From: Nitrososphaeraceae archaeon
Lineage (GTDB): Archaea > Thermoproteota > Nitrososphaeria > Nitrososphaerales > Nitrososphaeraceae
Direction of reading: 5' to 3'
DNA: 64,000 bases
Assembly: GCA_031316115.1 (NCBI GenBank)
Contig: JALDRC010000002.1
Span: 62,001 to 126,000 of the forward strand
Under the pieces are notes generated by a model, which saw only the letters and a list, made by a program, of their open reading frames with translations, was not told where the DNA came from and ran no database searches. A program made the translations under genes and the position numbers. Below are positions 32,250 to 36,300 of this stretch, one piece after another (positions within the stretch are counted from its first letter, which is position 1; each line of letters starts with the position of its first letter).

Positions 32250-33317
32250 CTGAATAACATTAATCAGTAGACCTTGTAAGATACTTTAAAACATCTAGAT
32301 TAAATCTTCTTGTTCTATAGTAACTAGAAATTGCATCCTTTAAAGAATCAAATGTAGGATAATAACAAGAAAGTATGTTGTACTTTCCCTGTCTCCAACA
32401 TTCTTCAATTACATTAAATTTTGGAGAGCCAACAGGTAAATATTCTACTCTTATGCTATCTTTATTTTCAGCCAGATATTTTCTAGTTATCTTAGAACGA
32501 TGGGGTGTTGCTCTATCAACAAATATGATGCATTTACCAAATTTATTCTGTATATATTTTAGATAATCAACAAATGTACTACTGTTAAATTTATCATATT
32601 GTAAAAATAATTGTTTACCTTCTATAGATAAACAACCAAATACAATAGTCTTTTACGACAACCTGTAACTGTAACTATTGGTCTTTTATCTGCAGAAATC
32701 CACTTCTTTTCTCTGAAGATATAATCATAAACAAATATCGATTCATCTTGCACTATTATATCCCAATCCTTATTGTTTTTATTTCTGTTATTGAGAATAT
32801 GGTTTACTCTTTTTTGAGGCTCTTCTTTTCCTTTGCAGAAGCAGTATTTACAAATCTTTTCTTTGGTACTTTGGATTTGAATCCCCACTTGTGTAACAAA
32901 CGATAGATATGCATTTCATGATATCTTACTCTTGTCTTTTTGTAGATAAGATCCATAACCTGTCTGAAATCCCATCCTGCATTGCTTTGTGCCAATTCTT
33001 GTCTTATTTTTACCATTACATCGTTTGGTACATCTGGAGGCCTACCTGTTCTTGATTGGTCTTGCAATCCTTCTAATCCATTTTCGTTGTATCTTTGTAC
33101 TCATTTGTAAGCCCATGCTCTACATCTGTGTAATTCTTTGCTACATTTTCTATGTGTTGTTTATCTTGTGTACGCCTTACTAGTTGTATCCTTTCTTTAA
33201 TATCTGCATTAGATTCATGGTTGTAAATCTTATCTAGTTTAGTATAATGACGCAATTATGATATGTGTCGGATACCGGTTAGCTAAAAATGTATCTACGA
33301 AGTTTAGTTAGTCAGTA
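32250..33317 (-). mobile_element. IS630-family element nested in the IS481-like element
   Basis: Ends TACTGAATAAC (32250-32260) and GTTAGTCAGTA (33307-33317) correspond to the inverted repeats of the IS630 copy at 17490-18595, with one mismatch, and carry the TA dinucleotide at both borders. The IS481 reading frame resumes on either side, which fixes the borders independently. The interior is a frame-shifted transposase related to the first copy. Confidence 0.82.
32274..33255 (-). pseudogene. IS630-family transposase, several frameshifts
   Basis: Fragments in order from 33255: ADIKERIQLVRRTQDKQH; RTGRPPDVPNDVMVKIRQEL and NAGWDFRQVMDLIYKKTRV; WGFKSKVPKKRFVNTASA; DIIVQDESIFVYDYIF; KRPIVTVTGCRK; then, near 32400-32550, a stretch with VDRATPHRSK and EYLPVGSPKFNVIEECW. 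These are the N-terminal HTH and the D-D-E catalytic parts of an IS630 transposase, lying in three registers. It closely parallels the copy at 17579-18573 and is likewise dead. Confidence 0.82.
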
Positions 33318-34128
33318 TTCAATGTAGCTTTTACGAACATAGCATATCTTCTCTTTCTATTTTCTAGATTAGGCATATTTTTACCGATAGAAACTCATTC
33401 TTTACTATCTTGTTATATGCTTCTATCTTTCCCTGGAGTTGCGGATATCTGCCAGGTAAGGATTTATCTTTAATATTGTTACGTTTGAGAAAATGTCTGA
33501 AAATTTTGGATGTAAACTGTTTACCGTTATCGTGCATTACCTTTTCTGGTTTACCATTTTCTATTATGTAATCTTCACACATCTACATCTACACTTCTTT
33601 TCCTCTCAGTTCATTCACTTGTTACCTTTCTTGAACAATCGTCTTCATAAATGATAAAATAGTTCTTTTGAGCACGATGGTTCAAAATAAAATGGTCCCA
33701 AGATAGCCATCTGTATGATTTGATTGGGTTTTTTCAGTGCAAATCTTTTCCATTTTTTATTTCGGATTTTAAATGAAAGGATATTCAGACCATGTCTTTT
33801 CACATTGTATATGATTCTTGTATTGAGCGATATTTCCTTTAAACGCTTTAACCTGAATTTTATACGATTGCATCTAAATCTTTTGGTTATATGTAAATAC
33901 AGTATTTCTTCTTCTATCTCTTTTGTTACCTTTATTGGTTGGGTATTATGTGGTTTTCGACTTTTATCCTGCAGACTTTCTATTCCATACTTTAGTACTG
34001 TTCTTCCACTTGTAGTATGTCTTCTGGATATATCGTATATAGTATAGATATCAGTTACTGTATCTCCAGTGCATTCTTTTTCATGAATTAAATTATATTT
34101 TGTTGTAATTCTATTTTTGTATACACTC
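33318..34128 (-). pseudogene. IS481-like transposase, N-terminal and core part
   Basis: Reading from ~34128: a helix-turn-helix region (TDIYTIYDISRRHTTSGRTV, LQDKSRKPHNTQP), then KEIEEEILYLHITKR, a degraded middle, and the integrase core end MCEDYIIENGKPEKVMHDNG, KQFTSKIFRHFLKRNN, GRYPQLQGKIEAYNKIVKNE. DNGxxF and the QxxGKxE motif are typical of rve-type integrase domains (IS481/IS3). The C-terminal ~50 residues lie beyond the nested IS630 at 32140-32249. Several frame breaks plus the insertion make it non-functional. Confidence 0.78.
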
Positions 34129-34515: not shown

Positions 34516-35078
34516 TTAAGGAATAGATCTGCTGTATAGTTTTCCTTCTAATGCTAGTTTGTACATCTCTGCTACATATGGGTTCTTTCCTGGTGTTTCA
34601 GCACCAAGTTCTACCAAACGTGCATACACTCTTACTACATATGCAAGAGCACCCATGAAAGCTACAACTACTCCCATGTTGAACATCCAGTGGTTTGGTA
34701 CAGCAAATATTTCTTCTACGAACCAAAAGTGCCACATTTCATTAACACCTATGGTAAACATTGTAGCCAAGTAACCGATTATGGTTATCTTTAATCCTGT
34801 GTTCATAGAGTTGTTTGGACCTCTAAGTACAGGTACTCTTCTGTCATACATCGCTTACAAACTCATCCTAATGGTAATGCAATAAAGTGGCTGTATAACC
34901 ACCAATGGGCAGGTGTAAATGCACTATCTCTAATAGCTGTTTGATGTAATGAACCATCAACAAAGTTGTCTACTTCTACGGATGCAGCAATAGAACCTAG
35001 CATAATTACCATTATGTAGATCTTTTTTAGTCTTTGAATTTCTACTTCTTTCGGTATGAGTGCAGGCATCTGAGCCAT
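34516..35078 (-). pseudogene. amoC: Ammonia monooxygenase subunit C, disrupted copy
   Basis: The N-terminal half runs from ATG 35078 (MAQMPALIPKEVEIQRLKK) through SVEVDNFVDGSLHQTAIRD and HWWLYSHFIALPLG, then meets TGA at 34863-34865. Fourteen bases later the frame, shifted by one, resumes at MYDRRVPVLRGPNNSMNTGL and is perfect to the normal end KLALEGKLYSRSIP. Archaeal AmoC is ~190 residues with a Trp-Gly segment exactly at the break, so 14 bases stand where 15 are expected. AmoC is a membrane subunit of the enzyme that oxidises ammonia to hydroxylamine. No amoA, amoB or amoX is nearby, so this is an extra copy. It is either a recent pseudogene or a sequence error. Confidence 0.85.
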
Positions 35079-35127: not shown

Positions 35128-35418
35128 GAATGAACAAAATTAAAAATTATAGATAAAAACAGATAATTATTGTAGAATATATATTATTTACGGATAATTG
35201 TTATGAGATTTATTATAACAATAGAATAATCATTAATGATTATCATTAATGATAAACTAATTATGTAAAAAAAAGAAAATATTATCAATTCTAACTCGAT
35301 AAAGATTATTTTGCATTTAAATTTAGAAAATTATTATCTGATTTATTCAATAACAAATTCAAAACACAAATTATACTCCAATGGTAGATCTAAGAGGAGA
35401 GGAGGATGTAATCATACT

Positions 35419-35862
35419 GTGGTCATAACAAATAAGAAGAAACAAATCGCTGATCTGTATGAATCATACAATAAAGTTCTTTTAAAATTTACTACTATCC
35501 TGATTTCTTCTCAGATCATACATCTTATCTGGTTAACATATGTAGCAACAATTCCATACTTTCTATTTCAAGAGATTTGGTATATTCCAGAAAATTTTCT
35601 TTTTGCCGCTATCGATTATCTTGAAATTCCAGCTTTAACATTGACATCATTGTATTATTTTGTAAACTTATCAAAAAAGAATATCTTGCTCTTAACTGCT
35701 ATTTTTCTACAATTCATTCATATCGCATGGATAACCGATACATTTATCTTAGAAAATGCTCATGACATAGGCTTTGCCATCTATATAGTTATTTTAATCG
35801 ATTATTCTGAGATTCCGGTAATTATAGATTTTATAAAAAAATCTTTAAAGAAAAAACACTAA
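35419..35862 (+). CDS. Four-helix membrane protein with internal duplication
   Basis: 147 residues from GTG 35419; the frame extends upstream to TTG 35311, but that part does not look like protein and a purine-rich AAGAGGAGAGGAGG precedes the GTG. There are four membrane helices in two repeats. Repeat 1 has SSQIIHLIWLTYVA and AAIDYLEIPALTL; repeat 2 has LQFIHIAWITDTF and ILIDYSEIPVIID. Each repeat thus contains H-x-x-W and DY-x-EIP in the membrane, giving paired His, Asp and Glu residues that could bind a metal or a quinone head group. It is divergent from amoC with ~340 bases between the starts. Family not recognised. Confidence 0.7.
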   Translation: MVITNKKKQIADLYESYNKVLLKFTTILISSQIIHLIWLTYVATIPYFLFQEIWYIPENFLFAAIDYLEIPALTLTSLYYFVNLSKKNILLLTAIFLQFIHIAWITDTFILENAHDIGFAIYIVILIDYSEIPVIIDFIKKSLKKKH

Positions 35863-36126: not shown

Positions 36127-36300
36127 ATGGAAAAGGAAAATAGAACACATGAAGTAAGAGGTTCAGCTCCTAGAGAAGAAGAATCTCGTCTTAAGACACA
36201 AAAAAAGATAAGCTCAGAAACAACCGACGGTGATAGAAAACATGAAGTAAGAGGTTCAGCTCCTAGAGAAGAAGAAGTTAAACAAAAAAATTCTTCGTGA
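36127..36300 (+). CDS. Small acidic/basic protein with a duplicated 12-residue motif
   Basis: 57 residues from ATG 36127 to TGA 36300. The segment HEVRGSAPREEE occurs twice, at residues 8-19 and 39-50, separated by a Lys/Thr-rich linker, and the two DNA copies (CATGAAGTAAGAGGTTCAGC and following bases) are identical over about 38 bases. The protein is very hydrophilic and probably disordered. The TATA-like TATATAATATTTAAG lies 25-35 bases upstream. It could be a short linear-motif protein binding a partner. No known family was recognised. Confidence 0.65.
   Translation: MEKENRTHEVRGSAPREEESRLKTQKKISSETTDGDRKHEVRGSAPREEEVKQKNSS

Follow-up and report, generated by a model that had tools for sequence, protein, structure and literature searches.

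Small membrane proteins with two homologous halves in Nitrososphaeraceae and bacteria, with a predicted place in the iron regulon of one Chloroflexota clade

The window analysed here is a stretch of 64,000 nucleotides from the genome of a Nitrososphaeraceae archaeon. Here, we focus on a gene in this window for a membrane protein of 147 amino acids, which lies close to an extra copy of amoC (table 1). The open reading frame (ORF) begins with GTG, about 14 bases 3′ of the purine-rich stretch GAGGAGAGGAGG; a longer in-frame alternative starts at a TTG (35311), but the homologues start near the GTG instead. Both halves of the protein contain the motifs QxxHxxW and DYxE[I/L/V]P, and the paired H-x-x-W and DY-x-EIP motifs described in the initial annotation are found where it placed them, with IHLIWLT at residues 34–40 and IHIAWIT at residues 100–106. 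Further along the same strand, a 57-amino acid ORF (36127–36300) contains two occurrences of HEVRGSAPREEE; this genome has one further copy of the ORF, 80% identical (G000:C12:153321-153485), and no copy was found in 40 related genomes.

Table 1. Features at the locus, with positions in the window.
Feature	Position	Strand	Basis or remark
amoC copy, extra, outside the system	34516..35078	-	frameshifted near 34855-34866
purine-rich stretch GAGGAGAGGAGG, possible ribosome-binding site	35393..35404	+	read from sequence, putative
twin-motif membrane protein gene	35419..35862	+	147-aa ORF, GTG start; homologues and model
repeat 1, helix 1 motif QIIHLIWLT, residues 32-40	35512..35538	+	ORF translation, family alignment
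repeat 1, helix 2 motif DYLEIP, residues 66-71	35614..35631	+	ORF translation, family alignment
repeat 2, helix 3 motif QFIHIAWITD, residues 98-107	35710..35739	+	ORF translation, family alignment
repeat 2, helix 4 motif DYSEIP, residues 128-133	35800..35817	+	ORF translation, family alignment

The AlphaFold2 model, built with 26 homologues, is all-helical with four helices of membrane length (mean pLDDT 85.6, pTM 0.78), in keeping with the four-helix membrane protein first proposed; a first model built from 13 sequences was weaker. The two halves of the protein are homologous. Comparison of the N-half profile with the C-half profile gave a score of 79.6 (E 1.5e-16); the highest score among 100 column-shuffled controls was 19.9, and a reversed half scored 8.3. 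The duplication of the motifs is thus more than chance. Since each repeat contains two helices, the repeats should be parallel. Lysine and arginine residues, summed over 26 members, number 60 in the N-terminus, 16 in loop 1–2, 100 in loop 2–3, 5 in loop 3–4 and 139 in the C-terminus; this abundance of positive charge in the N-terminus, middle loop and C-terminus, and its rarity in the outer loops, places both termini inside. With cytoplasmic termini, HxxW would end and DYxE would start toward the outer half of the bundle.

Sequence comparison places the protein in a real family that has no name as yet, made up of small membrane proteins with an internal duplication. A scan of genome contigs with the single sequence found no relative, but an alignment query did. 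Of 400 Nitrososphaerales genomes sampled, 20 contain a relative, and every one of these belongs to the window organism's own family, the Nitrososphaeraceae. One of the 20, G002, belongs to the same genus as the window organism and carries a degenerate remnant with several stops (G002:C368:30496-30839, within locus L109), which suggests that the gene is dispensable there. Bacterial relatives occur in contigs named Chloroflexota, Saccharimonadia, Peregrinibacteria, Microgenomates and Nomurabacteria, and also in 6 of 350 genomes of the phylum Chloroflexota and 17 of 380 of the phylum Patescibacteria. One relative is carried by a closed genome of 2,833,868 bp (G016, at C1:944142-944597), and a search of viral contigs and plasmids returned none. 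A maximum-likelihood tree separates archaea from bacteria (support 100/99) and groups the window protein with the G011 copy (94/91), on a long branch (2.62) that leaves its exact placement unsure.

No known family or fold accounts for these proteins. The window protein has no match above the curated cut-off in Pfam or NCBIfam, and comparison of 26 members with both collections gave nothing convincing, the best hit being UNC-50 (E 0.0062, in two members). A family profile search of PDB sequences had no match at E 10. Foldseek returned nothing below E 2 against PDB and viral structures, and its best PDB match (E 3.2) is far from the value of at most 0.001 that we took to indicate a known fold. 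We found no literature on this family.

The motifs are far better conserved than the remainder of the protein. Forty-two aligned members, drawn from Nitrososphaeraceae, Chloroflexota and Patescibacteria, share only 30–41% overall identity with the window protein, and all 42 keep the Q, H, W, D, Y, E and P residues of the two motifs without exception. The invariant residues are Q32, H35, W38, D66, Y67, E69, P71 and Y80 in the first half, and Q98, H101, W104, T106, D107, D128, Y129, E131 and P133 in the second. Homologues without the His, Asp and Glu residues, which the initial annotation had named as evidence against its proposal, were not encountered among these 42 members.

The position of the gene beside amoC had suggested a link to ammonia chemistry, and the two genes are indeed neighbours, divergently oriented in this one genome. 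The neighbour, however, is a frameshifted extra copy: its DNA is 98% identical to an intact amoC (G000:C15:274181-274741), including approximately 180 bp upstream, and the duplicated block ends near 35268, about 150 bp before the 147-amino acid ORF. A third copy (G000:C15:270414-270967), likewise broken, lies 3.4 kb from the intact one. The three copies in the genome are nearly identical and two are frameshifted at almost the same position, which could stem either from a recent duplication whose products are decaying or from consensus errors made where near-identical repeats were collapsed. Near the window copy, minus-strand fragments at 32622–33582 resemble, by eye, broken IS630-type transposase ORFs. 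If the protein served the archaeal ammonia monooxygenase (AMO) as an accessory subunit or a partner, linkage to amo genes and conservation across ammonia-oxidizing archaea would be expected, as with AmoX, AmoY and AmoZ, which are also small helical membrane proteins of these archaea and are highly conserved in them (PMC10030591). The family, by contrast, is sporadic and shows neither feature: amoC is missing from every other family locus searched, most carriers are Chloroflexota or Patescibacteria, and the gene occurs in only a small minority of the Nitrososphaerales genomes. A role as an AMO partner is extremely improbable for this protein and is refuted for the family; the refuting condition named in the initial annotation, homologues never near amo genes, speaks against the link. 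The adjacency is most likely incidental, the gene being unrelated to the ammonia gene next door.

In one Chloroflexota clade, a gene for a DtxR-type repressor lies directly downstream on the same strand in 7/7 loci (L026, L031, L036, L038, L101, L102 and L103). The domains Fe_dep_repress, Fe_dep_repr_C and FeoA were found in all three repressors tested (L026, L036 and L038), and in 6/7 clade genomes this is the only gene with Fe_dep_repr_C (PF02742). Upstream genes differ among L036, L038 and the L026 group, and it is thus the pair of family gene and repressor gene that is kept. A palindrome, TTAGGCGCGCCTTAACC or a variant, stands upstream of the family gene in the clade loci. Measured against TTAGGYGYRCCTAA, it has 0–1 mismatches in L026, L031, L102 and L103, two in L036 and three in L038; none of 100 mononucleotide shuffles of the stretch concerned reached the observed match at the first five of these loci, and 3/100 did at L038. 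In the remaining genome (G605, locus L101), the contig ends at the family gene, and a copy with one mismatch is found at the edge of an adjoining contig; the first gene there is similar to the one that precedes the family gene in L026.

The same palindrome, extended to TTARGYGYRCCTAACCCTCAGGGT, occurs at one fixed position before a gene for a solute-binding protein, in all four genomes in which that protein was found (G401, G404, G605 and G673). Among solved structures, its closest relatives are proteins that bind ferric iron (8k7n, E 7.8e-36; YfuA, HitA and FbpA), and the alignment with them keeps a stretch HYY, which we take to hold the iron-ligand tyrosines known from FbpA; the nearest NCBIfam models, phosphonate binders, fall far below cut-off. 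In G404, the sequence downstream reads as one MFS gene followed by an FbpB-type permease-like ORF. Genome-wide, TTAGGYGYRCCTAA-type palindromes at one mismatch are no commoner than their reversed control, so the weight of the palindrome rests on its position and not on its number. A candidate operator common to the repressor gene and an iron importer predicts, at the level of sequence, that the family gene in this clade belongs to an iron (DtxR) regulon. The association is limited to one clade and may represent a single evolutionary event.

Metal genes also adjoin or lie near single relatives elsewhere in bacteria: in L037 the family gene is followed after 31 bp by an Nramp gene (PF01566, E 3e-79) of the same strand, in L087 it shares 10 bp with an overlapping CorA gene, and in L027 a VIT1 gene lies approximately 3 kb upstream. 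Most Patescibacteria members adjoin housekeeping genes, such as those for RluB or RRM proteins; in two genomes the neighbour encodes a DUF1761 membrane protein (L088:847-1266 and L089:5487-5918). The neighbours of archaeal members are mixed (PsbP-like, cupredoxin, wybutosine-type radical SAM and NIF3-like proteins): metal genes do not recur beside the family gene in the Nitrososphaeraceae loci, and no DtxR-type box was found upstream of the archaeal members or the window gene. A palindrome site with two mismatches in L092 was reached by 1/100 shuffles, a result expected about once among some 50 loci. A weak match elsewhere in the window organism's genome (G000:C14:209625, E 0.03), to an ORF resembling the iron permease FTR1, was judged to be chance.

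Taken with the neighbouring DtxR, Nramp, CorA or VIT1 genes, the duplicated, invariant His, Asp and Glu residues in a membrane bundle point to metal handling. We give roughly even chances to the reading that this membrane protein, with its internal duplication and a buried site of His and carboxylate residues, handles Fe2+ (or Mn2+). The two halves would insert in parallel, both termini and the middle loop being cytoplasmic, and two His, two Asp and two Glu residues would face each other within the bundle; from the symmetry of the repeats, we infer that these six residues converge on one site. This set would coordinate the ion of a transition metal, Fe2+ or Mn2+, and the protein may import, export or sense that ion. 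In the Chloroflexota clade the family gene would head an operon with the DtxR-type repressor gene, and it and the ferric-iron ABC importer would probably be repressed together by metal. The same biochemical role is assumed for the archaeal protein by homology alone. A bolder version, which we hold only tentatively and think probably goes too far, sees a new family of minimal, duplicated membrane iron proteins with a buried His2/carboxylate4 (di-iron-like) centre built by the two QxxHxxW/DYxEIP repeats, acting in Fe2+ transport or redox chemistry in iron-regulated bacteria and carried by ammonia-oxidizing archaea, probably via inter-domain transfer.

Known metal proteins offer partial parallels. 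UPF0016/GDT1 and other duplicated Mn2+/Ca2+ transporters have two homologous halves, each with an acidic helix motif, and a pseudo-symmetric cation path. The family resembles them in its two homologous halves with an acidic helix motif, but their motif is ExGD[KR][TS], they have more helices and they show no sequence match to the 147-amino acid protein. Nramp, CorA and VIT1 probably share the class of cargo, but they are much larger, have other metal motifs and lack sequence similarity to the family. Di-iron carboxylate four-helix bundles (ferritin-like) likewise combine four helices, two His and four carboxylates with duplicated halves; their ligands are E and ExxH, whereas the family has QxxH and DxxE, is embedded in the membrane and gives no fold match.

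The invariant residues could also serve other chemistry. The initial annotation had left the choice between a metal and a quinone site; the metal option gains from the invariant His, Asp and Glu residues and the bacterial metal-gene neighbours, and a heme or quinone site has no specific support. It is unlikely that the protein is a membrane redox protein in which the invariant His of helices 1 and 3 ligate one b-type heme or form a quinone site, as in a ferric reductase accompanying iron uptake. The two symmetric invariant His and Trp at equal repeat positions would fit such a role, as would the iron-regulon context for a ferric reductase; however, the invariant Gly or Arg/Lys usual around b hemes are missing, the invariant DYxE pairs are left unexplained, and neither a cytochrome b family match in Pfam or NCBIfam nor a fold match was obtained. 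Four helices with buried His, Asp, Glu and Trp would equally suit a small membrane enzyme or lipid binder with an acid/base site unrelated to metals, like the EXPERA/EBP-type isomerases with four transmembrane helices. We regard this as improbable: nothing EXPERA-like appeared among the Pfam matches of the 26 members or in the PDB fold search, and the metal-gene context would stay unexplained.

The strict pairing with the DtxR-type gene allows for a membrane partner of the metal-dependent repressor, a sensor or stress protein without metal binding of its own. This is quite doubtful, given that the motifs are equally invariant in clades without a DtxR-type neighbour.

The placement of the family gene in a predicted iron regulon provides a function that can be tested and shows which residues to mutate, and the false lead to ammonia monooxygenase is removed. 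With at least 17 residues invariant in two domains of life, a family that the searched releases of Pfam and NCBIfam do not contain must have some specific task. If it does move iron, its members would rank with the smallest metal transporters that have an internal duplication, and even the tiny-genome Patescibacteria carry them.
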